From the IMG/VR virus record IMGVR_UViG_3300006071_000027, positions 1 through 40,655 of that record: a stretch of DNA of 40,655 nt, one strand, 5' to 3'. Both the position numbers and the translations under genes were made by a program. The notes under the pieces are model-generated. The model was not told where the DNA came from and ran no database searches. It worked only from the letters and a program-made list of their open reading frames with translations. The DNA is from a virus. Below, one piece after another: positions 23,558 through 40,655 of the stretch (its first letter is position 1; each line of letters begins with the position of its first letter).

Positions 23558-26500
23558 GTGTCCAATACAGTCATACAGATACTCCGGTCGTATACATCGA
23601 ATGTACCGACCACTTTAGCAGACGGTGCTTTAGCGTATTCGTTTAAATCCAATACTTTGTTTATTGGAGATGCAAATAATGAGATTATTCCAATTGGTGG
23701 TGAATCTTATATTCTCAATCTGATTGAAGTTAATGCTGGCCAGAACGTAGTTATTCAAGATGCTTTTGACCAAGCAAATGCCGCAACACATTCTGCACAA
23801 TTTGCTTATACAAATAGTAATGTCGCCTATACACAAGCAAATGCTGCTACCAACTCAGCACAAGCCGGATACAATCAAGCCAACGCTGCTACGGCTTCTG
23901 CTCAATCTGGTTATAATTTAGCAAATACGGTAAGTGCATATGCTAATGCTGCTTTTTTACAAGCAAACAATACTAATACATATGCAACTTCTGCGTATAA
24001 TCTAGCAAATACTGTTTCAACTACAGCAAATGCAGCTTATGCTCAGGCTAATGCAGCTACGGCTTCTGCTCAAGCAGCCTATACTGATGCTAATGCCGCT
24101 TTTATTCAAGCCAATGCAGCATATCAATTAGCCAATACAGATTCTACTACTGCTAATTCTGCTTACTTACAAGCTAATGCAGCCACAGCATCTGCTTCTG
24201 CCGCTTATTATAATTCAAATTCTGCCTATATTCAAGCTAATGCGGCTTTTGTACAAGCAAACGCAGCAAATCAATATGCTAATTCAGCATATGCTCAGGC
24301 AAATGCAACAAACCAATATGCTGTGTCTGGATATGCTCAAGCCAATGCAGCAACTAATTCTGCTCAAGCGGCATATAATAATGCAAACTCAGCAGTAAGT
24401 CAGATTGCAGCTAATACGGCATATCAGGTAGGTGTTAATACTACACAAAATACACAGATTATTGCTGTAAATACTTACGCCACATCAGGTTACAATCAAG
24501 CAAATACTACAACTGCCAACTTGGCAGCCAATATTATTTACTTCCAAATTGTAACGAATACTATTAATGCCAACGTGGTTGCTGTTAATACCTATGCGGC
24601 TTCTGCTTATAACCAAGCAAATATTACCAATACATACGCTACATCAGGTTATGCTCAGGCAAATGCTGCAACAAATTCAGCACAATCTGTATACAACTTT
24701 GCTAACAACATTTCTACTGAAGCTAATTCGGCATATAATTTGGCCAATACAGTCAGTACAACTGCCAATGCTGCTTATCTACAAGCTAATGCGGCAACCA
24801 ACTCTGCTCAATTTGCTTATACCAATTCTAATGCAGCTTATCTCCAAGCAAATGCTGGAACTAATTCAGCACAAGCTGCCTATAATGCCGCTAATACAGC
24901 TGCAGCAAATACTGTATACATTACTGGTGGTTTAAATACTGCCAATTCAACACTTACTTACATACAAGGTGTTGATAATGCTCAAAACGTAACAACTGCA
25001 CAATTAACCATATATGCAACTTTTGGATATAACCAGGCGAATGCTGCAGCAGCTTCAGCACAATCAGTATACAACTTTGCTAATAATATTTCAACACATG
25101 CTAATGCATCATATGATTTGGCCAACACAGTATCGACAGAAGCCAACTCAGCATATAACCTGGCAAATACTGTATCAACTACAGCAAACGCTGCCTATTT
25201 ACAGGCCAATGCAGCCACAGCATCAGCACAGTCTGTATACAACTTTGCCAACAATATATCAACTGAAGCAAACTCATCATATAATCTTGCCAATACTGTA
25301 AGTACAACCGCTAATGCGGCTTATTTGCAAGCCAATGCTGCCACTAACTCGGCTCAATCAGTTTATAACTTTGCTAACAATATCTCATTACATGCTAACG
25401 CAGCATATGATTTAGCCAATACTGTTTCAACAACTGCCAATGCAGCATATAACCAAGCAAATTTAACCAACACTTATGCTACTTCTGGATATGCTCAAGC
25501 GAATGCCGCTACAGCATCTGCTCAGTCTGGTTATAACCTAGCAAATACAGTAAGTACCACGGCTAATGCCGCTTATCTACAGGCTAACGCAGCAACCAAC
25601 TCAGCACAGGCTGCCTATGATAATGCAAATACTAAATTTGCTTCTGCTGGTGGAACAATTACTGGTTCTGTTACTATTAGTAAAGATTTAGCTGTTTCAG
25701 GTAACGTCAGTATTTCTGGTAACCTAACATATTATGAAGTTAATTCTGCTAACGTAGGTAATTCAATTATCTACCTTGCTGGTAATAACTCATCGAATGT
25801 GGTTGATATTGGTATTGTGGGTCACTTTGTTGGTGGTGTACCAAGTCATTATCAACATACTGGTGTTGTTCGTAATCATAACAATGGTAATTGGGTATTC
25901 TTTAGCAATGTATCTACTGAACCTACATCGGTAATCAATTGGACTGAAGCAAATATCACTTATGATTCTATTACTACTGGTGGCATCAACAGTCCTACTG
26001 CCAATATTAATGGCCTAGAATTATTTGCTTACTCAACCGCAGCATACAATCAGGCCAATTTAACTAATCAGTATGCCACAACTGCATATGCTCAAGCAAA
26101 TGCTGCCACAAATTCAGCACAATCAGTATACAACTTTGCCAATAATATTTCAACAGAGGCAAACTCAGCATATAATTTGGCTAATACAGTTAGTACGACT
26201 GCTAACGCAGCATACCTACAGGCCAATGCTGCCACCAATTCTGCTCAATCAGTATACAATTTTGCTAACAATATTTCTACTGAAGCCAACTCAGCATATA
26301 ACCTAGCAAATACCGTTTCTACTACATCCAATGCGGCTTACTTACAAGCCAATGCGGCTACGAACTCTGCTCAATCTGGATATAACCTAGCAAATACTGT
26401 AAGTACCACAGCCAATGCGGCTTACCTGCAAGCTAATGCAGCAACCAATTCTGCTCAGTCTGGATATAATTTAGCTAATACTGTTAGTACAACTGCTAAC

Positions 26501-28416: not shown

Positions 28417-28755
28417 ATGTCCAACAACTTCCGTAACAGTCTAAAACCTAGTATTGGTACCGCCAATACGACAGTCTACCAAACACCTTTGGCTACACAG
28501 TCAACGGTGATTGGACTTTCTATTGCCAATAGAACTACATCAAATACTATTCAAGTTTCTGCTTACGTTTTAGATTCTGCCAACTCATATACTCCAACAT
28601 ATATTGTAACAAATGCTACAGTACCTATTGGTGGTACTATTGTTGTAATTGGTGGTGATCAAAAGATGGTTCTTAAAGCAAGTGATTCAATTCAGGTATC
28701 TTCATCTGTTGCTGGTTCAGCAGATGCAATACTCAGCGTTCTGGAAATCTCATGA
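28417..28755 (+). CDS. Small virion protein ahead of the fibre array, unknown role
   Basis: The 112-residue protein is beta-rich: SIGTANTTVYQTPLATQSTV, then VIGLSIANRTTSNTIQVSAY and GGDQKMVLKASDSIQVSSS. The pattern (two strands, a turn, DQKMVLKASDSIQV) resembles small phage structural proteins of Ig-like or jelly-roll type that decorate capsid or tail. It has no Cys and no signal peptide. There is no good Shine-Dalgarno sequence (GAGAT only). Its stop overlaps the next fibre start (ATGA at 28752-28755), so it heads the fibre array operon. Function is unassigned. Confidence 0.65.
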   Translation: MSNNFRNSLKPSIGTANTTVYQTPLATQSTVIGLSIANRTTSNTIQVSAYVLDSANSYTPTYIVTNATVPIGGTIVVIGGDQKMVLKASDSIQVSSSVAGSADAILSVLEIS

Positions 28756-30599
28756 GCTTCTTAGGCGCAAGACCAGACTCCTTCCAATATGGTTCTACAG
28801 CTTATGACCATTTTAATGGTGATGGTGTTACAACCACATTTACACTATCACGCCAAGTATCCGCTAATGCTGATATTCAAGTAGTTGTTAATAACGTTAT
28901 TCAGGATCCAGGTGTTGCTTATTATGTAAGTAATCTAAACACACTTACATTTACTGGTGCTCCAACTTCAGGTACAAATAACATTTATGTTGTATATCGT
29001 CAGATGGTTCAATCTGGTATTGCTCCTGGTGCCAACACAGTTACAATGTCTGCCATTGCGGCAAATACAATTCAACCATGGCAATTATCAAATAGTTTAT
29101 TGAATCCATTGGTAAGTACATTTACCGGTGATGGTTCAACAGTTACTTTTACATTAACACAAGCAGCAGTATCTTCTAATTCTTGTTATGTAACGGTTAA
29201 CGGAATTACACAAGGTTCTCCAGCAAATTATTCAACAAATGGAGCAACACTTACATTCACATCAGCACCAGCAGCCAATTCAACTATTCGTGTGGTTCAA
29301 AACTCTGTTGTTGGTACAAGTATAGTACCAGTAGATGGTTCGGTAACCAACTCTAAGTTAGCCAGTAATTTAACATTGACTGGTAGTACAATTCTTCCTA
29401 TTATTTCAGGCAATACTTCTATTACAGGTAGTATTAAAGCTAATAACGGATTATATTCTTCAAATAATTTCACAGGTACCTACACAGATGGTATTGTGAT
29501 GGACTATGTGACGGGTAATGGAAGAATAAGTGTTGGTGGCGGAGACGGACTTACATTCTATAATGGTGGGCCAGCAACAACAGCTTTGATGACTTTAACT
29601 TCCGGTGGTAGTTTAGGTATTGGTACTACATCACCAAGAGGTAAATTACACGTCAACGCCACAACAAATCAAAATCTTGTTTTTGGTGGTCCTGTTAATT
29701 TTGCCAATGGTGTTTCTATTGCTTCAACTAATGATGCATATTCTCAAAACTATCCAATGGAATTTAGAGGAGGTAGTTTATTATTCACGTCAAATAACTC
29801 CGATTCTAGTGGTGGTAATATAGTTTTTAATGCCGGTGGTGAAGGCGAGAAGATGCGATTAGATTCTTCTGGTAATTTAGGACTTGGAGGCGCACCATTA
29901 AGTTGGCAATCAGGATATTCCGTATTTCAATTGGGTACTACATCATCTTTTTCGGTCAATACTGGCGGATTGTATACATTTATTGGAAATAATTTTTATA
30001 TTAATTCTTCTGGTGGTATAAATTATGCAGCAACCGGACCTGGCGCATATTATTCTATAAACAGAAATGCTGGAATACACCAATGGTCAACCGTTCTTCC
30101 TGGAACACAAGGTACAAGTGCAACAGCAAACGCATCTCAGATTATGACTTTGACTGCTGGTGGAGTATTGCAATTATCTTCTACAACAGGTGGGATTCAA
30201 TTTAATAATAGTTCAGCTTTAAATAATTCGGTACTGAACGATTATGAAACAGGTACATGGACACCAACTTGGAGTTCAACTGGCGGAGGCGTTTCCGGTT
30301 TAACTCAAACAGCAACATATACAAAAATAGGAAGAATTGTAACAGTAAATATTTCCGTTTCTGGAACTGCTGCAAGTGGAACTGCAAATCCTACAATTAA
30401 TAATTTACCATTTACTTGTGCTTCGGTTGGTTCATCCAGTGGTATTGCTAGAGAGTGGAATCAAACTGGATATTTTTGGGGTCTTAATGTAACGGGAGGA
30501 GGAACATCAGTAGGATTATGGAGATATGATAACGCCAACACCCTTCCTGTAGGTTCTTTTGGATTTTATATGACTTATACATATCAAGCATCTTTCTAA
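28752..30599 (+). CDS. Tail fibre 1 of the array (paired beta domains, TWTP-type tip)
   Basis: The 615-residue protein opens with two similar beta domains (about residues 16-90, HFNGDGVTTTFTLS; and 118-190, TFTGDGSTVTFTLT), each a fibre N-terminal module. A link GSVTNSKLASNLTLTG leads into the shared block NNGLYSS...GIVMDY...GLTFYNGG (about 235-280), nearly the same as in the fibre at 37609. GIGTTSPRGKLHV and EKMRLDSSGNLGLG repeats follow. The tip (about 495-615) begins YETGTWTPTWSSTGGG and contains TYTKIGRIVTVNI and NLPFTC, a module common at fibre ends. The start overlaps the upstream stop. Probably a receptor-binding fibre; trimer formation inferred. Confidence 0.8.
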   Translation: MSFLGARPDSFQYGSTAYDHFNGDGVTTTFTLSRQVSANADIQVVVNNVIQDPGVAYYVSNLNTLTFTGAPTSGTNNIYVVYRQMVQSGIAPGANTVTMSAIAANTIQPWQLSNSLLNPLVSTFTGDGSTVTFTLTQAAVSSNSCYVTVNGITQGSPANYSTNGATLTFTSAPAANSTIRVVQNSVVGTSIVPVDGSVTNSKLASNLTLTGSTILPIISGNTSITGSIKANNGLYSSNNFTGTYTDGIVMDYVTGNGRISVGGGDGLTFYNGGPATTALMTLTSGGSLGIGTTSPRGKLHVNATTNQNLVFGGPVNFANGVSIASTNDAYSQNYPMEFRGGSLLFTSNNSDSSGGNIVFNAGGEGEKMRLDSSGNLGLGGAPLSWQSGYSVFQLGTTSSFSVNTGGLYTFIGNNFYINSSGGINYAATGPGAYYSINRNAGIHQWSTVLPGTQGTSATANASQIMTLTAGGVLQLSSTTGGIQFNNSSALNNSVLNDYETGTWTPTWSSTGGGVSGLTQTATYTKIGRIVTVNISVSGTAASGTANPTINNLPFTCASVGSSSGIAREWNQTGYFWGLNVTGGGTSVGLWRYDNANTLPVGSFGFYMTYTYQASF

Positions 30600-30603
30600 T
30601 ATA

Positions 30604-30623
30604 CCTAGTATGGATGTACTAGG
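30604..30623 (+). promoter_or_regulatory. Perfect 7-bp inverted repeat between fibre 1 and its partner gene
   Basis: CCTAGTA (30604-30610), six-base loop TGGATG, TACTAGG (30617-30623). It lies five bases after the fibre stop and about 12 bases before the AAGGAG ribosome site. No T-run follows, so it is not a typical terminator; an RNA processing or stability element is possible. Confidence 0.6.
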
Positions 30624-30647
30624 CGGACAACAAAAAGGAGATTTAAA

Positions 30648-30905
30648 ATGGCATTAGAAAAAGTAGTAGTAAACGATAAAATAGAAATTTCAGAAAATGG
30701 TGTAGTACATGTAAGAGAATGTACCCGTATTTTGGAAGATGGTAAAGAATTATCTTCATCATACCACAGGTTCACTATTGCACCAGGTGAAGATTACTCT
30801 ACACAAGATGACCGAGTAAAAGCAGTATGCGCTGCTGTACATACACCAGAGACTATTGCTGATTATCAAGCTGCTCTAGCGAATTCAGTATCAAAATTAG
30901 GATAA
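30648..30905 (+). CDS. Small fibre-partner protein
   Basis: The 85-residue charged protein (EKVVVNDKIEISENGVVHVR, then CTRILEDGKELSSSYHRFTI and PGEDYSTQDDRVKAVCAAVH) is of a kind often found beside fibre genes in T4-like environmental phages. It has a beta N-terminal half and a helical C-terminal half (VKAVCAAVHTPETIADYQAA). Two Cys are present. It has the strongest ribosome site in the array (AAAAAGGAG, in the context GGAGATTTAAAATG repeated at 35247). It sits between fibre 1 and fibre 2 with four bases to the latter. A fibre-assembly chaperone or adaptor role is inferred from position only. Confidence 0.65.
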   Translation: MALEKVVVNDKIEISENGVVHVRECTRILEDGKELSSSYHRFTIAPGEDYSTQDDRVKAVCAAVHTPETIADYQAALANSVSKLG

Positions 30906-30909
30906 TTAA

Positions 30910-32394
30910 ATGTCTTTACAACAGATTGTCGCCACCGATATTTCTTCTTCTGCGGCTATTGGGCCTACTCAGTTAAGTACTGGTGCGCCAACTTGGTTAA
31001 CTAATGGTAATATAAATTTATCTGGTAATACAATAAATTCAACAAGCAATCTTACATTACAAACTGCTAATACAAACAGGATATCCATTACTTCTAATGG
31101 TAATGTGGGTATTGGTACTACCAGTCCAAATCATCCTTTGGATATTTTAAGTTATTCTGTGGATGCAGTAGGACTTACAGTAAGAAATAGAACTGGAAAC
31201 GATTACGCTAATTTTTCTTTTACCACTAATGATGGTGGAACTATACAAACTGGTTTTGTTAATGCTCTCACAGGAGCAAATGGTGCAAGTTTAATTTTTA
31301 ACAAAAAACCGGATGGTAGTGCTGCGGTAGAAGCAATGCGAATTACTTCCACAGGATATGTGGGTATTAACACAACAGGTCCAGCAACATTATTAACAAT
31401 AAACGGTGCCGGTACAGCATCAAGTAATAATTGGATGTGGATGGGAGCCAATTCATTAAATCCTCCTGCTGCAGCAACTTATGGTTTGTTAATAGGTGGA
31501 AATTTATCTCAATCAAATAGTGAAACAAATATTGTTTGGGGACAAGGCGTAAGTTCAAATCAGTATCTTGGTTTTGGAAAATGGACCGGCTCTGCTTACA
31601 CAGAACAAATGCGTATGTATAGTAATGGTACATTATCTATTGGTACAAACCTTAATAATGGTCACAAATTTAACGTGTATGATGGATCTTCTTATTTTTG
31701 GGTAAGTGACGGCACTTATGGTACGGCTGGATTTGGCCCAAGACCTGCAAATGATAGTATTTGTAGTGTTATTTTTTATTACAATGCAAATCCTGATAGT
31801 TGGAAAATTGATGCCACAACAGGAGCTTTTAACATACACCAAACTATTGTAGGTAGTGGTGATGTAACTCCATTTTCACTTAATTCAGCTGGATCCCTTG
31901 CTCTTTCTGGATCCAGCACAAATAGTACATATCTTTCTTTAGCTACCAGTGCTACCGGAGGACGGAGTTGGTCCATTTATTCTTCTGGAGGTGGACCAGT
32001 AACAGCTGGATATTTTGGAATTTACGATAATAATGCCGGAGCAAATAGACTTTACATTGATACTGGTGGTACCGTATATGCACCAACAGCTCTTTCTACT
32101 GGTGGAAACTTTTTTGTTGGTGGGGTTGCTTCTGGTGCAGGTACATGGTTGTGTACTTTTACTTCTAATATTGATGTTAATGCAAATAGATCACCAGGTG
32201 TTTGGGGTTCTTATGCTTCTAGTGCTACCAACGCTCCCGACAATGCAGGTATTCTTTGGAATGGTATGAGTGGCGGACAAGGTACAGGTGTAGGAGATGG
32301 TGGTCAACTTTTCCAAGACTATAGTGATAATAAATTTTGGACTCGTAAACGCTGGGGCGGTGGTTTTGGCGCTTGGACATATATTGGAGGTTAA
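30910..32394 (+). CDS. Tail fibre 2 of the array (knob-like tip)
   Basis: The 494-residue fibre starts with MSLQQIVATDISSSAAIGP and a LSTGAPTW element, the short form of the N-terminal block of fibres 3 and 4. It continues with NVGIGTTSPNHPLDILS, VEAMRITSTGYVGINTTGP and EQMRMYSNGTLSIGT units, a repeat type widespread in environmental phage fibres. The C-terminal 90 residues (about 405-494) end with a Trp-rich segment (GQLFQDYSDNKFWTRKRWGG, then FGAWTYIGG) resembling the pyocin-knob class of tips that bind surface sugars. AGGA lies before the start. It overlaps the next gene by one base. Receptor-binding role is inferred. Confidence 0.8.
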   Translation: MSLQQIVATDISSSAAIGPTQLSTGAPTWLTNGNINLSGNTINSTSNLTLQTANTNRISITSNGNVGIGTTSPNHPLDILSYSVDAVGLTVRNRTGNDYANFSFTTNDGGTIQTGFVNALTGANGASLIFNKKPDGSAAVEAMRITSTGYVGINTTGPATLLTINGAGTASSNNWMWMGANSLNPPAAATYGLLIGGNLSQSNSETNIVWGQGVSSNQYLGFGKWTGSAYTEQMRMYSNGTLSIGTNLNNGHKFNVYDGSSYFWVSDGTYGTAGFGPRPANDSICSVIFYYNANPDSWKIDATTGAFNIHQTIVGSGDVTPFSLNSAGSLALSGSSTNSTYLSLATSATGGRSWSIYSSGGGPVTAGYFGIYDNNAGANRLYIDTGGTVYAPTALSTGGNFFVGGVASGAGTWLCTFTSNIDVNANRSPGVWGSYASSATNAPDNAGILWNGMSGGQGTGVGDGGQLFQDYSDNKFWTRKRWGGGFGAWTYIGG

Positions 32395-32726
32395 TGATGA
32401 AATGTGTATTTAATCCAGACGGAACGATGTTTCTTATTGGTCCAGACGACCATAGAGATTATGAAGGTAAAACATCATATGTTGTACCGGACGAACTTGT
32501 AATTCATAAACAAGATACCGATCCTGTTACAAAAGAAGTAGGTATTCGTGAATTGACTCATGATGAATTTCAACAAGCTTTATCTGACCACATGGCAATT
32601 TACAGTAATGCTCGCAAAGCGGCTTACCCATCTATTGTTGACCAATTGGATACTTTATATCATGGTGGTTATGATGCATGGAAAGCACAAATACAAGCAA
32701 TCAAAAATCAATATCCTAAACCTTAA
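32394..32726 (+). CDS. Fibre-partner protein, XkdW / tail-assembly-chaperone-like
   Basis: The product is about 110 residues. The start is placed at the ATG overlapping the fibre 2 stop (TAATG); an in-frame ATG at 32397 has better spacing from GGAGG (32386-32390) and is equally possible. A start at 32373 is open but lies inside the fibre gene. The C-terminus carries a pattern common to XkdW-like and tail-fibre-assembly proteins: ARKAAYPSIVDQLDTLYHGG, then YDAWKAQIQAIKNQYPKP. The first half (FNPDGTMFLIGPDDHRDYEG) is beta-like. Likely a small chaperone for an adjacent fibre; the function is inferred from family and context. Confidence 0.7.
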   Translation: MMKCVFNPDGTMFLIGPDDHRDYEGKTSYVVPDELVIHKQDTDPVTKEVGIRELTHDEFQQALSDHMAIYSNARKAAYPSIVDQLDTLYHGGYDAWKAQIQAIKNQYPKP

Positions 32727-32732
32727 TAAATA
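32725..32732 (+). promoter_or_regulatory. Late-promoter-like octamer AATAAATA before fibre 3
   Basis: It overlaps the stop of the upstream gene and ends four bases before the ATG at 32737. No Shine-Dalgarno sequence is present. The distance to the ATG is the same as at 5010 and 37597. Confidence 0.35.
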
Positions 32733-32736
32733 AGAC

Positions 32737-34242
32737 ATGGCACTTACACAGATAACCACAGACGTTGTAACAGGTAACGTACTTGCTTCGGCAACCAATT
32801 CTTATTTTGCTAATACGCAGAATGGCGGAGTCATTCCTGGTAACTTTATTACTCCATATACATTACCAGCAAATGCTCATGCCAATAATAGTATTACTTT
32901 TTCACAACTAAGTGTTGGTGCTCCATATTGGAATTCTTCTAACGTTGGTATTGGAACTACATCACCCTTGTTTGTATTGGATGTTCAGGGTCCAACAGGC
33001 ACTAATATACCATTCAGCGTTAAAAATACTACAGCAGCAAACACTACACCTTTCTCAAATTTAGTAGGTAGATTTGCAGCAAATACATCTGGTGCCGATG
33101 CAACCATCAATTTAACTGATGCTGTTACATATAATGCCTTTATTGGTATGGGAAGTGGCCATTTATATTTTGGTACCAATGGTTTTGTTGAGCGCATGCG
33201 TATTGCTAATACAGGTAACGTAGGTATTGGAATAACCAATCCAATTTATTCTTTACATGTAAAAAATCCAAATGATTATCGTGCGGCTTTATTTCAAACA
33301 GGAAGTACATATGGTCCTTCAATTCAAATTCAAGGTAGTAAAATTTATGAATTAAGAAGTACGGATACTGGAGCAGGTGAAGGTGCAGGATTATTTTTTA
33401 TTTACGACAAAGATAATAATACATCTCGATTAACCGTCAATTCATCAGGTCAAATAGGTATCAATACAAATTCACCTTCACAAACACTTACTGTTAATGG
33501 TAATATTAGTGCTACAACTTATTATGGAAATTTAGGTTCAAACGTATATACAACATATGCAAATACTAATGTATCAAGTGCTGCAACTTTAGTTACACTC
33601 ACGTCAGGCACATCTTGGACAGTACCATCAAATGTTTATCATATTGATGTTTTAATTATTGGCGGTGGTGGTGGCGGTGGTGCAAATTTAGCTGGTGGTG
33701 GCGGTGGAGGCCAAGTAGTTTTTGTTTCAAAAATGGCCGTCACACCAGGAGCAGGAATTTCATATAGTATTGGTGCTGGTGGTGGAGGAGGCACAAATAG
33801 TACTAGTAATGCTGGCGGTGGCGGCGGTTCTACAACATTTAATGGTATTACCGCTGTGGGTGGAGGTGGCGGTGGTGGTGGAGATAATGGCGGCGGAGGT
33901 ACCGGAGGAAATGGTTCTAACAACGGATCACAAGGTGAAAAAATTAATGCTTCTGGTGGAGGCATTATTAGTGATATAACCGGAGTAGGTGTAACATATG
34001 CATCTGGCGGAGGCGGTGGCGGAGCATACTCAAATGTTAATTCTAGTTATTATCCACCAGGAACCGGAGGACCAGGAGCCGGAAACGGCGGATGGGGAAC
34101 CAATACCCTAGGTTGGGGTCCAGGTGCTGGTGGAAATGCCACATGGTATGGTTGTGGTGGAGGCGGCGGTGGATTAGAACTTGATGCTGGTGGTTCAGGA
34201 TATCAAGGCGCAGTTATTATCAGATATGTAGCAGGAATATAA
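32737..34242 (+). CDS. Tail fibre 3 of the array (polyglycine tip)
   Basis: The 501-residue fibre has an N-terminal region (1-65) ending in LSVGAPYWNSSN, a VGIGTTSPLFVLDVQGPTG block also found in fibre 4, and VERMRIANTGNVGIGITNP repeats. From about residue 289 it changes to SGTSWTVPSNVYHIDVLIIG followed by about 200 Gly-rich residues in runs of three to eight Gly separated by strands (SYSIGAG, STTFNGITAVG). It ends with GYQGAVIIRYVAGI. Such Gly-rich domains form polyglycine-II bundles in the adhesins of T2/S16-like phages and occur in the 'glycine-rich domain' family. It is likely to bind the host directly. Two small genes and then a 2OG oxygenase follow. Confidence 0.82.
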   Translation: MALTQITTDVVTGNVLASATNSYFANTQNGGVIPGNFITPYTLPANAHANNSITFSQLSVGAPYWNSSNVGIGTTSPLFVLDVQGPTGTNIPFSVKNTTAANTTPFSNLVGRFAANTSGADATINLTDAVTYNAFIGMGSGHLYFGTNGFVERMRIANTGNVGIGITNPIYSLHVKNPNDYRAALFQTGSTYGPSIQIQGSKIYELRSTDTGAGEGAGLFFIYDKDNNTSRLTVNSSGQIGINTNSPSQTLTVNGNISATTYYGNLGSNVYTTYANTNVSSAATLVTLTSGTSWTVPSNVYHIDVLIIGGGGGGGANLAGGGGGGQVVFVSKMAVTPGAGISYSIGAGGGGGTNSTSNAGGGGGSTTFNGITAVGGGGGGGGDNGGGGTGGNGSNNGSQGEKINASGGGIISDITGVGVTYASGGGGGGAYSNVNSSYYPPGTGGPGAGNGGWGTNTLGWGPGAGGNATWYGCGGGGGGLELDAGGSGYQGAVIIRYVAGI

Positions 34243-34244
34243 AA

Positions 34245-34532
34245 ATGTACTTTTGGTCTCAAATAGATTCTTCAAATACTGTAATTAATGTTGTTGTTAA
34301 TGACGTTAAACCTGAAGGTAATTTTATACAAACCTTTCAAGATGGAACACGTGGCCACTATGGTAGTGTAGGACACACATGGGATGGTACTAATTTTATA
34401 CCACCATGTCCACATAGAGGATGGTTATTAAATGGAATAAATTGGGAGCCTCCAATTCCATATCCAGGACATGATATGACCAGAGGTAGATATGTTCGTA
34501 GATGGAATGATGAAACATTAAATTGGGATTGA
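34245..34532 (+). CDS. Small Trp/Pro-rich fibre-associated protein
   Basis: The 95-residue protein begins MYFWSQIDSSNTVINVVVND and ends with a proline- and Trp-rich run (TNFIPPCPHRGWLLNGINWE, then PPIPYPG and RRWNDETLNWD). This layout (viral SQID..VINVVV start, FIPPxP.xSW-like middle, W.APxPYP.. ending in ETxxW) is known to me from small proteins of T4-like environmental phages located near fibre genes; their role is unknown. The ATG follows the polyglycine fibre stop by two bases and has AGGA upstream. One Cys. A capping or assembly partner for fibre 3 is a reasonable guess. Confidence 0.65.
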   Translation: MYFWSQIDSSNTVINVVVNDVKPEGNFIQTFQDGTRGHYGSVGHTWDGTNFIPPCPHRGWLLNGINWEPPIPYPGHDMTRGRYVRRWNDETLNWD

Positions 34533-34533
34533 A

Positions 34534-35118
34534 ATGCAAGTAATTGAAAATTTGTTATCGAAGCACTATGAAAATGATATTGAAAATACATTAAATGATA
34601 TTAATTTTCCTTGGTATTTTTATGATGAAATATCAAAAGGAGATTATAATAATCCAGCAGTAACAGAATCTTTTGGATTGGTACATACCATATATGATTC
34701 ATATAATGGAGTAAATTCAAATTATTATCCTTTTTTTAAATCCATATTATATTTTATGGAAGATAAATTTAATATTGAATTTAATAGAATATTAAGAATA
34801 AGAATTAGAAAAACAACACCTATTATTGGACACAATTTAAACAAATATAATAGACCACATGTTGATTTACCAGAAGCTTCTCCGTACAAAACATTAGTAT
34901 ATTATGTTAATGATTCAGATGGAGATACCGTATTGTTTAACGAATTTTATACTTTAGGCGAAAGCACCGAAATAACAAAAGAAATATCAGAATATAAAAG
35001 AAATACTCCAAAAAAAGGTAGTGCAATTTTATTTGATGGTCACAGAATACATGCTGGAAATAATCCAGTAAATTATAAACAAAGAATTGTAATAAATTTT
35101 GATTTTTTGGAAAAATAA
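34534..35118 (+). CDS. 2-oxoglutarate/Fe(II)-dependent oxygenase
   Basis: The 194-residue protein has the double-stranded beta-helix oxygenase pattern: His109-Val-Asp111 in RPHVDLPEA, GDTVLFNEF, and the distal His173 (HAGNN) with Arg184 (YKQRIVINFDF), which together would bind Fe(II) and 2-oxoglutarate. The family hydroxylates amino acids in proteins, nucleobases or small molecules; related enzymes are frequent in T4-like marine phages with substrates mostly unknown. The gene begins one base after the stop of the small fibre partner. All eight Arg codons are AGA and the sequence is visibly more AT-rich than the fibre genes, which suggests later acquisition. Modification of nearby Gly-rich fibre is a hypothesis; the enzyme class is fairly sure. 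Confidence 0.85.
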   Translation: MQVIENLLSKHYENDIENTLNDINFPWYFYDEISKGDYNNPAVTESFGLVHTIYDSYNGVNSNYYPFFKSILYFMEDKFNIEFNRILRIRIRKTTPIIGHNLNKYNRPHVDLPEASPYKTLVYYVNDSDGDTVLFNEFYTLGESTEITKEISEYKRNTPKKGSAILFDGHRIHAGNNPVNYKQRIVINFDFLEK

Positions 35119-35163
35119 CTTAATAACACAAGAAATACTTTACCTTAAGCGGTTTTAACACAG

Positions 35164-35171
35164 CCTAAATA
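35164..35171 (+). promoter_or_regulatory. CTAAATA-type late-promoter-like box
   Basis: CCTAAATA has the same CTAAATA core as at 22928, again in one of the two longest gaps. T4 spacing puts +1 near 35177, one base before the hairpin at 35178. Confidence 0.5.
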
Positions 35172-35177
35172 ATATAC

Positions 35178-35211
35178 AGACTTGTATTAGACAACCATCC
35201 TATACAAGTTT
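35178..35211 (+). terminator. Hairpin with T-rich tail (terminator or 5' mRNA stabiliser)
   Basis: ACTTGTAT (35180-35187) pairs perfectly with ATACAAGT (35202-35209), loop 14 bases; a G-T and an A-T pair extend it to ten. TTATTTTTAA follows. It could end transcription of the oxygenase unit, or form the 5' end of a transcript started at the box just upstream. The low GC content of the stem makes a strong terminator less likely. Confidence 0.5.
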
Positions 35212-35246
35212 ATTTTTAATAGATGGTAAATTTATGGAGATTTAAA

Positions 35247-35438
35247 ATGAGTGATATTTCGATTACCCTTAATTTAGACGAAGTTAATGTAGTTATGCAA
35301 GGTCTTGGACAATTGCCATATGCGCAGGTAAGTCCAGTTGTTGATAAGATTCGTGGTCAAGCAATTCCACAAGTTCAAGCTCAACAACAGACACAAGCAC
35401 CTACACAACCAACAGTAACAGACGTAACACCAAACTAA
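35247..35438 (+). CDS. Small 63-aa protein with helical core and Gln/Thr/Pro tail
   Basis: The start is placed at the ATG at 35247 because GGAG (35236-35239) lies eight bases before it in the same context (GGAGATTTAAAATG) as the gene at 30648; an upstream in-frame ATG at 35223 has no ribosome site and falls in the leader. The product begins MSDISITLNLDEVNVVMQGL and contains GQLPYAQVSPVVDKIRGQA, then a low-complexity Gln/Thr/Pro tail (QAQQQTQAPTQPTVTDVTPN). A similar N-terminal pattern (LDEVNxVLxxLGxLPYxxVxxLIxKI) occurs in small phage proteins of unknown function. Seven bases separate its stop from fibre 4. Confidence 0.7.
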   Translation: MSDISITLNLDEVNVVMQGLGQLPYAQVSPVVDKIRGQAIPQVQAQQQTQAPTQPTVTDVTPN

Positions 35439-35445
35439 AAAATAG

Positions 35446-37260
35446 ATGAGCATATCGCAGATTAATGCAGCAAGTATTCAAGCAGGTACCGTTGTTGCCT
35501 CTGATATTGCTGCAAATACCATTACTCAAACAAACCTGACTATTGGAGCACCTTACTGGAACTCCAGTAATCAGGTGGGTATTGGTACGACAACACCAGG
35601 ATATCAATTGGATGTTCAAGGTCCAACAGGTATTACGTCAACAAAATCTACGACAGGCACAAACACATCTTATTTTATCTCTAACAATGGAGCAGGTGCC
35701 ACAGCAATTGGTATTGATAGTTCTTCAGGAACACTTACTGGTGTTGCTAATGCTTCATTTGTTTGGAGTTCAGTAAACTCTCCTTTGATATTCTCACAAA
35801 ATTCTACTGAGAGAATGAGAATTGATACAAATGGAAATTTAGGTCTTGGTGTAACTCCAGCAACCGCCACAAGAACAACACTTCAAATTGGTGCATATGC
35901 TACTATTGATAATAATGCAGGTACTGGTATTGAAATAAATTCTAATGCGGTATATAATTCCGGTTGGAAATATATTAATAGTGCCGCAGCAACACAATAT
36001 TATCAATATTCTGGTACTCATGTATGGCAATATGCTACGTCAGGAACAGCAAGCAATTCCATTTCATGGACAGAAGCAATGCGTATCACCTCTGCAGGTA
36101 ACGTTGCTATTGGTTCTACTAGTGCAAATTTCCCATTATCTTTTGGTGCTAACATAGGTAAATCTATTGCTCTTTATGAGAGTAGTGGTACGAATATGTA
36201 TGGTATAGGAATGGGTGGATTAGGAACAACTCCAAGTCCATATCGTACACAATTATTTGCCAATGGTTCAGAAGCTGTTTCAATTACTGCAACGGGAAAT
36301 GTTGGTATTGGAATAGTAAATCCATCAACAACATTAAATCTTTATTCATCCACAAAACCCACATTAACTTTTGGTGATTCAACTTTAGGTAATAACTATG
36401 GTGGACAAATTACTGGATATGGAGTATCGGGTAATGGTGGTTATTTAAGTCTTGGAACAAATGATAACAACACATACAATGAAGGTATACAGTTAACTCA
36501 ACAAGCAACTAATATAATCTTTAAAACGAGTACAGGTACAAATGGTACCACGGCAGAACGTATGCGTATTAATTCTACTGGATATGTGGGTATTGGCCAA
36601 TCATCTCCGGGTGCATACTTGGATATTTTAACTGCCACATTAGGTAACACGGTTGGTAATATTCAATACATTTTTAATAGTGCTACAAATGATGGAAATA
36701 CTGACCAAATACAATTATATGCCTATAGAAATACATCTACTGGCAGTTGGCCTTATGTTGATTTCTTTTTAAGACGCAGTGTTGATGGAACGCAAAACCA
36801 AGGTTATTTTAAATTTGGTGCAACTGTATCAGGTTCATATTTAGCATTTTCTTCCAATAGTACTGAGCATATGCGTATTGACCCATCTGGCAACATATTT
36901 GTTGGGGGTACTACACAAAATACAGCTACTGGTATTGTGTATGCAAAAACTACTGCTAAAGCATGGGCTAAATGGGGAGGTGGCAACCAAACAACAGCTG
37001 GCTCTATTTTTGCTTCTTACAATTGCTCAAGTATTACTGTTAATAGCACAGGAAGATATACATTTAATTTTACCAACGCTATGGCTTCTGCCAACTATGC
37101 AATATCAGCTTTAACATCATATTCAAATGGAAATACTGGTGTTGGCATTTCAGCTAACCAAGATAGTGATAATCCGCCTAGTTCCACTAGATTTGATGTA
37201 GCTGTTTGGACTTCTGGATATTCTAACTCAAATTATGTATATGCTTCTGTATTTGCTTAA
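35446..37260 (+). CDS. Tail fibre 4 of the array
   Basis: The 604-residue fibre opens with MSISQINAASIQAGTVVASD, then LTIGAPYWNSSNQVGIGTTT and LDVQGPTG, the block shared with fibre 3. It carries several RMRI-type units (TERMRIDTNGNLGLGVTPA, EAMRITSAGNVAIGSTS, AERMRINSTGYVGIGQSSP, EHMRIDPSGNIFVGG). The tip (about residues 490-604) starts TAKAWAKWGGG, with SYNCSSITVNSTGRYTFNFT and a YVYASVFA end, a beta-sandwich-like tip pattern found on many fibres. No Shine-Dalgarno sequence is obvious before the ATG; coupling with the small gene upstream is likely. Receptor-binding role is inferred. Confidence 0.8.
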   Translation: MSISQINAASIQAGTVVASDIAANTITQTNLTIGAPYWNSSNQVGIGTTTPGYQLDVQGPTGITSTKSTTGTNTSYFISNNGAGATAIGIDSSSGTLTGVANASFVWSSVNSPLIFSQNSTERMRIDTNGNLGLGVTPATATRTTLQIGAYATIDNNAGTGIEINSNAVYNSGWKYINSAAATQYYQYSGTHVWQYATSGTASNSISWTEAMRITSAGNVAIGSTSANFPLSFGANIGKSIALYESSGTNMYGIGMGGLGTTPSPYRTQLFANGSEAVSITATGNVGIGIVNPSTTLNLYSSTKPTLTFGDSTLGNNYGGQITGYGVSGNGGYLSLGTNDNNTYNEGIQLTQQATNIIFKTSTGTNGTTAERMRINSTGYVGIGQSSPGAYLDILTATLGNTVGNIQYIFNSATNDGNTDQIQLYAYRNTSTGSWPYVDFFLRRSVDGTQNQGYFKFGATVSGSYLAFSSNSTEHMRIDPSGNIFVGGTTQNTATGIVYAKTTAKAWAKWGGGNQTTAGSIFASYNCSSITVNSTGRYTFNFTNAMASANYAISALTSYSNGNTGVGISANQDSDNPPSSTRFDVAVWTSGYSNSNYVYASVFA

Positions 37261-37268
37261 GGATAAAA

Positions 37269-37601
37269 ATGGCTAAAATAATTATTCATACAAACGATAA
37301 TGGCGGCGTTTCCGTTACATATCCTTCTCCTGAGTTTTTAGAAAATAATACTATTGAGGATGTGTTAGCTAAAGATTGTCCTGACCACGCTATCATTATT
37401 GAAGATTCAGAACTTCCAGAAGATCATACTTATTTCAATGCTTGGGAACTGATTGACGGAAAAGTAGTGGTAAATGAAACCAAAAAACAAGCCATAATTG
37501 ATGCTGAACAAGCAAAAATAAATTCTAAACAAGAAGTTAAAACAAAATTGTCTGCTCTTGGTTTAACAGAAGATGAAATTCAACACCTACTAAATCCATA
37601 A
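37269..37601 (+). CDS. Small fibre-partner protein with helical tail
   Basis: The 110-residue protein begins MAKIIIHTNDNGGVSVTYPS, then EFLENNTIEDVLAKDCPDHA and IIEDSELPEDHTYFNAWELI. This pattern (IIxxNxxGGVSVxxP..., AKDxP, LP.DhtFfnAWe) is common among small proteins found next to fibre genes in many tailed phages; the family is widely seen but poorly characterised. The C-terminal third (about 70-108) is a helical, Lys/Glu-rich segment ending LGLTEDEIQHLLNP. AAGGA precedes the ATG, eight bases after fibre 4. A chaperone for fibre 4 or 5 is inferred from position. Confidence 0.7.
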   Translation: MAKIIIHTNDNGGVSVTYPSPEFLENNTIEDVLAKDCPDHAIIIEDSELPEDHTYFNAWELIDGKVVVNETKKQAIIDAEQAKINSKQEVKTKLSALGLTEDEIQHLLNP

Positions 37602-37604
37602 ATA
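37597..37604 (+). promoter_or_regulatory. Late-promoter-like octamer CATAAATA before fibre 5
   Basis: It overlaps the stop codon of the partner gene and ends four bases before the ATG at 37609. No Shine-Dalgarno sequence is present. The arrangement repeats that of 5010 and 32725. Confidence 0.4.
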
Positions 37605-37608
37605 AAAC

Positions 37609-39858
37609 ATGTCTTATCTAGGAAATCCTTTATCGTCAATGAATTATCCTGTGGATTATTTCACAGGCGATGGTACATCTACGACATTTACTTTATCATA
37701 TACTCCAGCATCCGCCACATCGATTCTGGTGTATATTGGTGGCGTTAAACAAGTTGCTTCGACAACCAATCCAGCATACTACCTAATTGGTAATCAATTA
37801 ATACTCTCAGCAGCACCAGCAGCCAACTCCCCAATCGAAGTGAACTATCTTGGTATTGCTTCTCAGGTGAATGTGCCATCTTCACAGAGTATTACACAAT
37901 CGATGCTCTCGTTACAAATTGCTAATACATTTGTAACCAACACAATTACCAATGGTACACAAAACGTAATCACATTGGTTGCTCCACCGGTTTCTTCTAA
38001 CTCATTAATTGTTACAGCAAACGGTGTTGTACAATATGATTATTATGTAAATGGTTCTAATCTTTATTTGAACTTTACTCCACCAGCAGGTACTAGAATT
38101 CGTGCTCAAGGTATTGCACTTACTTCTATTGGAGTTCCTAATGATGCTTCAATTACATCTGCCAAATTAAGTTCTAATTTAACATTTACAGGTACATCAA
38201 CATTTGCCGCTAACGTGGTAGTTGCTGGTAACTTAACTGTTGCCGGTAACACAACTTATGTTAATTCAGAAGTTGCTAACAATGGATTATATTCCACAGG
38301 AGCATTTTTAGGATCATATACATCTGGTATTGTAATGGATTATTCAGGATCCACAGGAAGAATTTCTGTTGGTTCTGGTGCAGGTCTTACATTCTATAAT
38401 GGTGGTGTGGGTAGTTCATCATTAGGTTCTGTAAACTCTAGTGGTACATGGACTTTACCAACATTAAATCTAACAAATGCTTTAGGTGTTGCTTATGGTG
38501 GTACTGGCTTGTCTACAGTTGGTACTTCTGGTTATTTCTTGCAGTCTACTGGTACTGGTTTGCAATACACAGCTGTTGCTGGTGTAACCCCAGGCGGCTC
38601 AAATAATTATATACAATACAATAGCTCTGGCAGTTTTGCTGGTTCTGCTAATTTAAGTTTTGATGGAAGCCACTTATATGTGGGATCTGCTGCTACTCAA
38701 GCTACTTCTGTTTTGTCAGTAAATCAAGGATCAGCTCAAAGCCCAATTACATCTGGTAACATGACTACAGGATCGGTAGTGTTTGGTTCTGGATCTGGAG
38801 CACAGGCATTAAATATAGGTACAGATGGCACAGGAGCTTGGTATAACTCTGCCTACGTTAATAATGCTGGTGTACCTTTGGCCCACCGCTGGTTGGTTGG
38901 TGGGACAGAAGCTATGCGTATTAATTCGTCTGGTCAAGTGTTAGTTAATACTACAACATCCACAACATATTACTCAGGGTCAAGCCAAGTTTACCCAAAT
39001 GCTTTGATTCAAGGTGATTACGATACTTTGTATTTGGCTGGATATACAACTAATCCAGGTCTAAACTTTGCTGGTCCAAATAGTGCATCAAATAGATTTA
39101 GATTTGCTGCTATTCAGGGAGCATTCACAACAACTACAGCAGGTTCTGAAGCTGGAGCTTTATTATTTGAAACATCTAATGGTGGCTCAAATATTGCAGA
39201 ACGGATGCGTCTTGATTCTAGCGGACATTTAAATATTGGATGTTCATCAGGTAATTTTCAGTTAAACATTCAATCAAGTGGCACAACAGGTATCCAATTA
39301 AATCCTAACGGTTCAACTTCAACCGCTGGATACTTGGTTAATGATGGAACAAACTTATATTTAGGTTCATCATATGGTGCTACTGGTATTAAATTCAGAT
39401 TAGCTATAGCAGCACCTGATTATTGCGCAACAATTACAAGTACTGGCGCCGTGTTAACACCTTACCAACCTTCATTTTTCTCTTCAGTTACCGGTGGAAG
39501 TTATACCGCTGGTTCAACTTTTGGTGGAGGTCTTGTTACTACACCATCACAACCTTCAACTAGAACTTCTGGATATAGTAATGGCACGTTTACAGCTCCA
39601 GTAGCAGGGTATTATTCATTTACGTTCCAAGTGTATGATTTTAATACTGCTGGTGCAAATTATCAAGTCTACAAAAACGGGGCTGGATACTACCCCGCTG
39701 ACGCATTGCAGATGATTGCGAGTTCAACCATGATGTCTTGGGCATTTATTATATACTTAAATGCAAATGATTATGTACAAATGGGTTTAAGAACTGGCTC
39801 TGCCAGTCCAAATGTTTATAGTGGCCACACTTACTGGTCAGGATTTTTAATAGGATAA
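37609..39858 (+). CDS. Tail fibre 5 of the array (C1q-like tip)
   Basis: The 749-residue fibre starts MSYLGNPLSSMNYPVDYFTG with two beta domains (about 15-85, YFTGDGTSTTFTLSYTP; and 105-175) like fibre 1, then the shared NNGLYST...GIVMDY...GLTFYNGG block. RMR-type units follow (EAMRINSSGQVLVNTT, AERMRLDSSGHLNIG). The final 135 residues (about 615-749) read as a C1q/TNF-like jelly roll: YQPSFFSSVTGG, GTFTAPVAGYYSFTFQVYDF, MMSWAFIIYLNANDYVQMGL and YWSGFLIG at the very end. C1q-like tips trimerise and bind ligands in many phages. It probably recognises a receptor different from that of the other fibres. Confidence 0.83.
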   Translation: MSYLGNPLSSMNYPVDYFTGDGTSTTFTLSYTPASATSILVYIGGVKQVASTTNPAYYLIGNQLILSAAPAANSPIEVNYLGIASQVNVPSSQSITQSMLSLQIANTFVTNTITNGTQNVITLVAPPVSSNSLIVTANGVVQYDYYVNGSNLYLNFTPPAGTRIRAQGIALTSIGVPNDASITSAKLSSNLTFTGTSTFAANVVVAGNLTVAGNTTYVNSEVANNGLYSTGAFLGSYTSGIVMDYSGSTGRISVGSGAGLTFYNGGVGSSSLGSVNSSGTWTLPTLNLTNALGVAYGGTGLSTVGTSGYFLQSTGTGLQYTAVAGVTPGGSNNYIQYNSSGSFAGSANLSFDGSHLYVGSAATQATSVLSVNQGSAQSPITSGNMTTGSVVFGSGSGAQALNIGTDGTGAWYNSAYVNNAGVPLAHRWLVGGTEAMRINSSGQVLVNTTTSTTYYSGSSQVYPNALIQGDYDTLYLAGYTTNPGLNFAGPNSASNRFRFAAIQGAFTTTTAGSEAGALLFETSNGGSNIAERMRLDSSGHLNIGCSSGNFQLNIQSSGTTGIQLNPNGSTSTAGYLVNDGTNLYLGSSYGATGIKFRLAIAAPDYCATITSTGAVLTPYQPSFFSSVTGGSYTAGSTFGGGLVTTPSQPSTRTSGYSNGTFTAPVAGYYSFTFQVYDFNTAGANYQVYKNGAGYYPADALQMIASSTMMSWAFIIYLNANDYVQMGLRTGSASPNVYSGHTYWSGFLIG

Positions 39859-39872
39859 TTTAAGGAAATAAA

Positions 39873-40139
39873 ATGGCAACATATACAGTAACATTAACAG
39901 ATGCAGAAGATAAAGCTATTCATTATGTAGCCAATTCGGCACAAGAATGGATTGATAATGCAGTTCATAATCGTTGTAGAATTGCAATGGATGAAATTGT
40001 AAATAACCATGTTCAAGAGCAGTTAAAAAATGGTCAGCCAATTGCTGGTACAACACATGAGGAAATTGTTTTAAATGTGGATATTAAATCCGCTTACCAA
40101 AGAACTCAAGAACAATTGGTTCAACAAATTTCAAATTAA
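39873..40139 (+). CDS. Small helical fibre-partner protein
   Basis: The 88-residue protein (MATYTVTLTDAEDKAIHYVA, then SAQEWIDNAVHNRCRIAMDE and IVNNHVQEQLKNGQPIAG) is mostly helical and charged, with one Cys. Small proteins with a WIxNxxxxRxxxAxxEI segment are frequent beside fibre genes of environmental phages, with unknown function; this is from general recollection. AAGGA lies before the ATG, 14 bases after fibre 5. Its place between fibres 5 and 6 repeats the fibre/partner alternation of the array. Confidence 0.65.
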   Translation: MATYTVTLTDAEDKAIHYVANSAQEWIDNAVHNRCRIAMDEIVNNHVQEQLKNGQPIAGTTHEEIVLNVDIKSAYQRTQEQLVQQISN

Positions 40140-40151
40140 TTAAAAAAATAA

Positions 40152-40655
40152 ATGTCTCAACAACTAATTACCGCCAATGAAGTTTCTCCAACATCAGGTG
40201 TTGCTAACACAGGTATTGTTGGACTAATTACATCTGCTCAGTTACAACCTAATTTGGTATTTTCTGGTACCACAACAATGTCTGGTAACTTGGTTGTTCA
40301 AGGTACAACCACGACAGTTAATCAAGAGATTGTTAATACATCAATTATTACAAGTACTTCTGTAAGCAGTCCTATATTAAATGGACCAAGTACATTAGCG
40401 TTACAGACGGCTAATACAAATGCTCTATACATTAATTCAAATCAGCAAGTGGGTATTGGAACGAGTAGTCCAGCAATTAACTCTGGATTAAACAACACAC
40501 TTACTGTTTTCAATTCTGCTGGTGGTTATGGTTCTATTGAAATTTATGGAAATACTTCAACTCAAGGCGGTATATTAGATTTTGGTGCAGCAACTGTTCG
40601 TTATGTTAATTTAGCAGGTGAATATGATGGAGCCACAAATAAAGGTAGATTGGTG
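40152..40655 (+). CDS. Tail fibre 6 of the array, N-terminal part (continues past window)
   Basis: 168 codons are open to the right edge. The start MSQQLITANEVSPTSGVANT is followed by SAQLQPNLVFSGTTTMSGNL and VVQGTTTTVNQEIVNTSIIT, a trimerising beta pattern seen in the other fibres, then LALQTANTNALYINSNQQVG and IGTSSPA, the same repeat family as fibres 2-4. The ATG is preceded by AAAAAAATAA without a Shine-Dalgarno sequence. Tip and length are outside the window, so specificity cannot be judged. Confidence 0.8.
   Translation, partial: MSQQLITANEVSPTSGVANTGIVGLITSAQLQPNLVFSGTTTMSGNLVVQGTTTTVNQEIVNTSIITSTSVSSPILNGPSTLALQTANTNALYINSNQQVGIGTSSPAINSGLNNTLTVFNSAGGYGSIEIYGNTSTQGGILDFGAATVRYVNLAGEYDGATNKGRLV

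Follow-up and report, generated by a model that had tools for sequence, protein, structure and literature searches.

Pairs of a fibre gene and a downstream chaperone gene are known from phages T4 (gp37/gp38) and Mu (S/U, Tfa) and from the Alteromonas phages V22 (gp26/gp27) and A5 (gp8/gp9) (PMC7289586, PMC10579305), as well as from cyanophage Pam3 (gp24/gp25) (PMC9608196). In pelagimyophages and cyanomyophages, a hypervariable host recognition cluster with several fibres lies between the baseplate/VrlC genes and the neck genes (PMC7029224). The array described here occupies the same place. It was analysed in a window of 40,655 nt (positions 1-40,655 of IMG/VR record IMGVR_UViG_3300006071_000027). 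The virus is a T4-like myovirus, and this region, whose hypervariable fibre genes lie between those for baseplate and neck, is its host-recognition cluster.

Layout of the fibre array

A preliminary description had placed six fibre genes (F1 to F6) and six small genes (S1 to S6) in this region, and an ORF was found for each of them, starting at the position given and all on a single strand (see table). Small genes stand directly downstream of fibre genes on the same strand, as in Tfa- and gp38-like pairs. The intergenic gaps across the array range from -1 to +48 nt, with the exception of 128 nt downstream of the oxygenase-like gene. The proposed alternation of fibres and small genes holds for most of the array and is broken between F3 and F4, because the 2OG-Fe(II) oxygenase-like gene sits there. 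An additional small gene, S0, was absent from the earlier list and stands before F1. Since its relatives often lie downstream of proteins ending in (A)LAFSIALG, S0 is probably associated with the 1607-aa protein encoded upstream. The overlapping contig IMGVR_UViG_3300006127_000025 (99.997% identical to the window over 29,427 nt) completes F6, which runs off the window end; beyond it follow a 207-aa Peptidase_S74 ORF, a 125-aa Phage_tail_APC gene and gp13.

Table. Genes of the fibre array, with positions in the window.
Feature	Position	Strand	Remarks
S0, 112-aa small protein	28417..28755	+	phrog_1276; end overlaps F1 start by 4 nt
F1, 615-aa fibre	28752..30599	+	T1 tip at C-terminus
S1, 85-aa partner of T1 tip	30648..30905	+	phrog_6228
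F2, 494-aa fibre, own tip (..NKFWTRKRWGGGFGAWTYIGG)	30910..32394	+	
S2, 110-aa small gene	32394..32726	+	first base is last base of F2
F3, 501-aa fibre, glycine-rich tip	32737..34242	+	Pfam Gly_rich_2
S3, 95-aa partner of glycine-rich tips	34245..34532	+	phrog_7759
2OG-Fe(II) oxygenase-like, 194 aa	34534..35118	+	Pfam 2OG-FeII_Oxy_3 at E 1e-4, score just short of the gathering cut-off
S4, small gene, 63-71 aa	35247..35438	+	alternative start 35223
F4, 604-aa fibre, AWVNFNGTG/SSITDNGTG-type tip	35446..37260	+	
S5, 110-aa partner of F4-type tip	37269..37601	+	
F5, 749-aa fibre, F1-like N-terminus, C1q-like tip	37609..39858	+	Pfam C1q, E 1.5e-6, above cut-off
S6, 88-aa small gene	39873..40139	+	
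F6, fibre truncated by window end	40152..40655	+	full 371 aa in overlapping contig

As previously suggested, the fibres share N-terminal or central blocks with similarity above chance. The N-termini of F1 and F5 are 38% identical over 286 aa (E 4e-34), F3 and F4 are 44% identical over 128 aa (E 9e-17), and central repeats of the GIGTTSP type are common to F2, F3, F4 and F6, most pairs scoring between E 1e-5 and 1e-8. F1 consists of N-terminal T7-tail-like GDGxTTxF domains, GIGTTSP repeats and the T1 tip (residues ~456-615, pattern DYETGTWTP..YTKIG..NLPF..YxAxF). The tips are indeed unlike each other, with zero matches in tip-to-tip comparisons among the fibres of the window; their number, given earlier as five, is six once F6 is complete. 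The small genes have no significant mutual match and fall into separate PHROGs or none, in line with the proposal that each represents a different family. In S2 the C-terminal part is conserved (..YDAWKAQIQAIKNQYPKP) and the N-terminal part is variable.

Small partner genes and the tips they follow

As judged by sequence comparison, the small gene goes with the preceding fibre, and the partner family tracks the family of the C-terminal tip and not that of the stem. For the T1 tip and S1, a first count gave 45/47 associations. This number was not taken as proof because most of these loci had been fetched with F1, and searches with S1 alone were therefore run. A T1 tip was directly upstream of S1 in 12 of the 13 phage records fetched in this way. 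The HMM recognised 11 of these 12 tips (E 1e-39 to 7e-24), and the tip in HTVC119P is split across two ORFs. An S1-only scan of contigs placed the same tip family upstream in 7/10 distinct contigs, and with all loci pooled 54 of 60 nonredundant S1 genes lie directly behind a T1 tip. The exceptions, in which S1 has no recognised T1 tip directly upstream, are DSL-LC05 and loci L210, L237, L243 and L248. A separate scan of genome contigs with an S1 homologue as query found nothing. The distances among T1 tips and among S1 partners correlate (Mantel r 0.49, reached by 0/2000 permutations). A search of the phage collection with the T1 tip alone gave zero matches although the loci retrieved by S1 carry divergent T1 tips, and tip searches therefore need profiles.

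Other families were also examined. S5, searched alone, had a homologous F4-type tip directly upstream in all five other phage records examined, and elsewhere the tips in front of it are of more than one type. Glycine-rich tips precede S3 in three Melnitz-3 units, in CRP-143 and in a Pontimonas phage, the exception being S-MS29, where S3 lies behind another gene. The single homologue of S6 is likewise behind a C1q-type tip (L203), making two cases in all, and relatives of S2 elsewhere follow a different tip type than that of F2. Few loci were recovered when the tips of F4 and F5 were used as queries. The assignment of S4 as a fibre partner found no support, as there was no evidence of pairing. 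No pairing is claimed for S7, because in other loci its profile had shifted to a shorter family. The earlier idea of one specific partner per fibre survives as partner specificity, with the specificity lying at the level of the tip family and not of the single fibre or receptor.

Profile searches, including Pfam and PHROGs, returned no convincing similarity of S1 to S6 to known chaperones: none for S1, S2, S3 and S6, and only phrog_136 at E 0.06 for S5. Chaperone homology was found only for the gene just past the window (Phage_tail_APC, E 9e-12). PDB sequence searches with S1, S2, S3 and F1 gave nothing significant. The model of S1 (pLDDT 93) has a three-stranded beta sheet followed by two C-terminal helices, and no PDB entry matched this fold significantly. 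By Foldseek, the T1 tip model matched receptor-binding heads: the Det7 tailspike at E 2e-4 and, more weakly, the TP901-1 RBP and the heads of adenovirus and reovirus. A read-through model of tip and S1 had a pTM of 0.51 and showed no convincing docking.

Joint exchange of tip and partner, and its interpretation

Relatives of this virus do not keep six fibres in a fixed order; their arrays are quite different, with gp13 84-91% identical. Searches for F1 and F4 in long relatives found by gp6 gave zero matches because the arrays differ too much. Within the species of the window no swap was seen, the relatives showing only wholly different arrays. The cultured phages Melnitz and Melnitz-3 provide such a case: their flanks are 99.9% identical and they differ by tip and partner units. 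In gene 175 the first 102 aa are kept (93%), and T1 with S1 is replaced by a glycine-rich tip with an S3-type partner. Genes 177/178 and 181/182 are also changed as pairs, and 179/180 are unchanged (98-99% identical). The suggestion that fibre tip and partner are swapped by recombination as one unit is borne out in this pair of phages, as expected for Tfa- and gp38-like genes.

At the level of sequence, it is thus shown that the partner family tracks that of the tip in phages and on stems that are unrelated, and that both are replaced jointly in near-identical genomes. The probable explanation is that these fibres have chaperones or caps specific to the tip fold, exchanged as cassettes. Each unit would comprise a fibre gene, encoding a stem at the N-terminus and a receptor-binding tip at the C-terminus, and then a small gene for the tip's dedicated partner. 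The fibres would be trimers, and the partner, by analogy with Tfa of phage Mu and gp25 of cyanophage Pam3, may act as an intermolecular folding chaperone or as a transient cap. It would bind a conserved part of the tip fold, so that a new tip would work only with the matching partner. Recombination in shared stems would exchange whole units, tips of one family may also diversify while the partner stays unchanged, and several units per genome could allow a virion or a population to present several specificities, perhaps simultaneously. By exchanging ready-made units of tip and partner, the virus apparently alters or broadens its attachment range.

If the partners were instead permanent virion parts (tip adhesins or distal caps such as gp38 of T2-type phages), the receptor-binding unit would be tip plus partner. 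Specificity for tip families and co-exchange fit this reading equally well, and Tfa remains on the fibre tip in Mu, as cited in PMC10579305 and PMC7289586. However, partners can be >90% identical behind tips that are ~30% identical. Such a partner fits the tip fold and not the receptor, the reverse of what is expected of a receptor-contacting adhesin; in addition, the final small gene of the array encodes a Phage_tail_APC chaperone. We consider permanent partners rather unlikely. Co-inheritance of tip and small gene through conserved gene order, without functional pairing, is less probable still. Short distances favour joint inheritance, and some loci come from related contigs. An unsupervised permutation test gave 2426 concordant pairs, the mean being 63, but it also takes in conserved core-gene neighbours and was not used as sole proof. 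What argues against mere gene order is that the same tip and partner occur on 14 clusters of unrelated stems, in myoviruses and podoviruses that infect different hosts, and that one swap changed partner and tip family jointly inside otherwise nearly identical genomes.

The array might also be largely a store of fibre genes that are decaying or out of use, one or two fibres doing all the work. From one relative to another the arrays are completely replaced, no Shine-Dalgarno sequence precedes F3, F4, F5 or F6, and Melnitz isolates that differ in their units had the same host range among the few hosts that were tried (PMC9004378). Nevertheless, the ORFs are all intact and tightly packed, the array is identical in the second contig of the same virus, and the absent Shine-Dalgarno sequences are also compatible with translational coupling of each fibre gene to the small gene before it; we regard a store as improbable. 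Programmed switching of tips within a lineage, by site-specific inversion of the Mu/P1 type or by a diversity-generating retroelement, would account for several tips at one locus and is very improbable, as all genes are on the same strand and just two weak inverted repeats were detected, not positioned as switch sites. The window and the overlapping contig, both partial records, contained no serine recombinase or reverse transcriptase family matches, and accordingly neither a Mu G segment-type switch (inverted crossover sites and an invertase gene) nor a reverse transcriptase near a variable tip.

Comparison with known systems

Much variable fibre DNA of aquatic phages is annotated as hypothetical. 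The rule linking tips and partners would make it readable as units, give families such as phrog_6228 a testable role, explain how tips move between unrelated phages yet still fold, and suggest which neighbour to co-express when such fibres are produced for binding studies; the cultured Melnitz phages are a natural experiment. Chances are about even that the rule is a modular code across tailed phages, in which each tip fold family has its own family of small partners (S1, possibly with a new fold, S3, S5 and S6 being among those so far unrecognised as partners), several units are collected in arrays, and tip plus partner are traded across phage families.

The principle is already known from Tfa and gp38; what looks new is the set of partner families, the rule on tip families and the scale of the array. 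As in the T4, Mu, V22, A5 and Pam3 pairs, the small gene is directly behind the fibre, linked to the tip and co-exchanged between unrelated phages, and the beta domain and C-terminal helices of Pam3 gp25 have the layout predicted for S1. Unlike the partners in those systems, S1 to S6 have no detectable homology to them, several distinct kinds of tip and partner share one array, and tracking of tip families is seen over many genomes. In the excerpted text of PMC7029224, the host recognition cluster is described without tip-partner units or a rule linking them, and with glycosyltransferase genes, none of which were seen in this array. RaK2 (PMC10253068) likewise has many receptor-binding proteins per genome, but there the modelled fibres form a branched complex, and at least one of them contains a chaperone domain of its own. 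The OM43 phages Melnitz and Melnitz-3 (PMC9004378) have T1 with S1, glycine-rich tips with S3 and APC-type partners in the same place; nine genes of altered length were reported for this region, and the joint replacement of tip and partner families emerges from the present comparison of the sequences.

Fibre array and its genomic setting

The preliminary description had listed six fibre genes alternating with six small genes. All twelve open reading frames are present, on a single strand and almost without gaps, and two further genes had been overlooked: an oxygenase-like gene within the array and a small gene, S0, ahead of it.

Features of the array and its surroundings
Feature	Position	Type	Match or remark
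	3357-4517	14-residue repeats	ANAAYLQANAATNSAQ type
	10474-12687	14-residue repeats	ANAAYLQANAATNSAQ type
	23558-28381	1607-aa protein	14-residue repeats (ANAAYLQANAATNSAQ type); C-terminus LAFSIALG
S0	28417-28755	small gene	
F1	28752	fibre	weak T7-tail-fibre N-domain match
S1	30648	small gene	phrog_6228
F2	30910	fibre	
S2	32394	small gene	phrog_9114
F3	32737	fibre	Gly_rich_2
S3	34245	small gene	phrog_7759
	34534-35118	oxygenase-like gene	2OG-Fe(II)
S4	35247	small gene	no family match
F4	35446	fibre	
S5	37269	small gene	weak family hits only
F5	37609	fibre	C1q
S6	39873	small gene	no family match
F6	40152	fibre	
	about 41269-41892 (extended window coordinates)	207-aa ORF	Peptidase_S74 chaperone domain

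The N-termini of F1 and F5 are alike (38% over about 285 residues), as are F3 and F4 (44% over 128 residues), and central GIGTTSP-type repeats are common to F2, F3, F4 and F6. Within the array, no match was found between one tip and another or between one small protein and another. Oxygenases also lie near the array/neck border in locus L069 and in HTVC008M, and occur among the neighbours of the fibre region in S-MS29. In relatives, a C-terminus like that of the 1607-aa protein stands before S0-type small genes.

An overlapping contig of 44,525 bases (IMGVR_UViG_3300006127_000025), 99.997% identical to positions 11229-40655, runs on 15 kb further. It completes F6 (371 aa), which is followed by the Peptidase_S74 ORF, a 125-aa Phage_tail_APC protein (E 9e-12), a member of a known chaperone family that closes the array, and then gp13, gp14, gp15, terminase, sheath, tube, portal, protease, scaffold and capsid genes, putatively named from their position and likeness to T4-like phages. 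gp6 matched proteins of the baseplate wedge from pelagimyophages, Melnitz phages and cyanomyophages. Given these flanking genes and the gp6 matches, the array is the hypervariable host recognition cluster known in such phages (PMC7029224). The separate self-cleaving chaperone ORF directly behind F6 places a chaperone in cis beside partners in trans.

Exchange of tips and partners

Neither the array nor a fixed order of the six fibres is kept in relatives. Contigs with gp6 55-80% or gp13 84-91% identical retain the flanks and carry different arrays: L070 has a single 2266-aa protein and one small gene, L069 several glycine-rich fibres together with an oxygenase and a homologue of S3, and contigs G010 and G013 have other proteins. 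Small ORFs resembling, by eye, homing-type (GIY-YIG-like) endonucleases lie beside or within gp13 in the close relatives L067 (6344), L068 (2986) and L070 (9301).

Exchange was seen directly between Melnitz (MZ577097) and Melnitz-3 (MZ577098), OM43 phages cultured on the same host strain, whose sequences agree at 99.94% across the 21 kb that precede the variable part and at 100% across the 8.8 kb behind it. The first 102 residues of gene 175 are kept (93%), after which the tip family of F1 (T1) gives way to a glycine-rich tip, and in gene 176 S1 is replaced by an S3-type protein. Genes 177/178 and 181/182 were also exchanged as pairs, while 179/180 between them are 98-99% identical. The paper describing these phages reports nine genes of altered length and a host range that did not differ across the small number of hosts tried (PMC9004378).

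The proposed swapping, and the pairing of tip with partner, thus proved largely right. The idea of one specific partner per fibre held as to pairing and is refined in that the partner follows the tip family: across the T1/S1 set, S1 proteins more than 80% identical can follow tips no more than 27-36% identical, and between loci L160 and L191 (surroundings 94-95% identical) the T1 tip changed and S1 hardly did. The fold of the tip, rather than its receptor-contacting surface, is therefore most likely what a partner recognises.

Pairing of tip and partner families

Tip and small-gene profiles were run across 215 loci. An S1 homologue (S1 itself has 85 residues) stood directly behind a T1-tipped fibre in 45 of 47 cases. 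Since most of these loci had been fetched with F1, we also searched with S1 alone. In the phage collection 41 records matched; among the 13 fetched, the T1 tip was directly upstream in 11 (by HMM) and split over two ORFs in one more. These records include Synechococcus and OM43 myoviruses and SAR11, Synechococcus and Roseobacter podoviruses, several of the podoviruses being related to one another. Among viral contigs fetched by S1 alone, 7/10 distinct contigs had the T1 tip directly upstream of S1. In the nonredundant pooled set, S1 lay behind a T1 tip in 54/60, and the small gene after a T1 tip was S1 in 54/58. Tip and S1 distances were correlated (Mantel r 0.49, reached in none of 2000 permutations), and the stems (N-terminal parts) of 32 longer T1 fibres fell into 14 clusters. 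Of the phage records fetched, DSL-LC05 (L223) departs most clearly from this pattern: its S1 lies behind another small gene, after a tailspike of a different kind. The record with the split T1 tip is the Pelagibacter phage HTVC119P (L231, 1164-3976), in which S1 behind the two ORFs is intact; the split may reflect decay, a frameshift or a sequencing error in the deposited genome.

Other pairs behaved similarly. A search with S5 alone retrieved ct3Oc712, Vibrio phages 1.101, 1.077 and 1.009 and cyanophage NATL2A-133, and all five have an F4-homologous tip in the gene directly upstream (E 5e-14 to 3e-5). Glycine-rich tips precede S3 homologues in three Melnitz-3 units, CRP-143 and a Pontimonas phage, with S-MS29 as an exception. 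The one S6 homologue found is likewise behind a C1q-type tip. In P-SSP7 and HTVC010P the conserved C-terminal part of S2 recurs behind tips whose last residues are E(I/V)A(A/G), an ending unlike the C-terminus of F2. By analogy with Pam3 gp25 (PMC9608196), S2 may combine a variable tip-binding part with a conserved rest, which would explain the differing tip ends. For S4, no such tip link was found among the loci profiled.

Predicted structures, translation and known fibre partners

The high-confidence model of S1 (pLDDT 93) places two helices after three long strands. No PDB entry matched it past E 0.001; the four viral matches that did are all uncharacterised phage proteins, and a limited literature search found no publication on S1. 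In a read-through model of tip plus S1, which gave no indication of how the two dock, the T1 tip is predicted to be a head-like beta sandwich. Its best PDB match was the Det7 tailspike (E 2e-4), followed by weaker matches to the TP901-1 receptor-binding protein, adenovirus fibre heads and reovirus sigma1. Most likely, each fibre would be a trimer whose tip depends on a dedicated partner, acting as chaperone or cap, for folding, for trimerisation or for being kept capped until release, and the array may display several tips.

Shine-Dalgarno sequences are strong before S1-S7 and absent before F3-F6 (positions 30910-40152; 6 vs 7 genes, P 0.003), which suggests that the fibres of the window are translated through coupling to the preceding small gene. 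This difference between fibres and partners was not seen in Melnitz-3.

For V22 gp26/gp27 a dedicated fibre partner has been shown (PMC7289586); PMC10579305 discusses one for A5, and that of Pam3 has been solved (PMC9608196). Exchange of a fibre together with its downstream chaperone is a known principle. As far as we found in the open-access literature, what is new is the partner families, the rule that ties the family of a partner to that of its tip in many phages, and its use in a six-fibre array.
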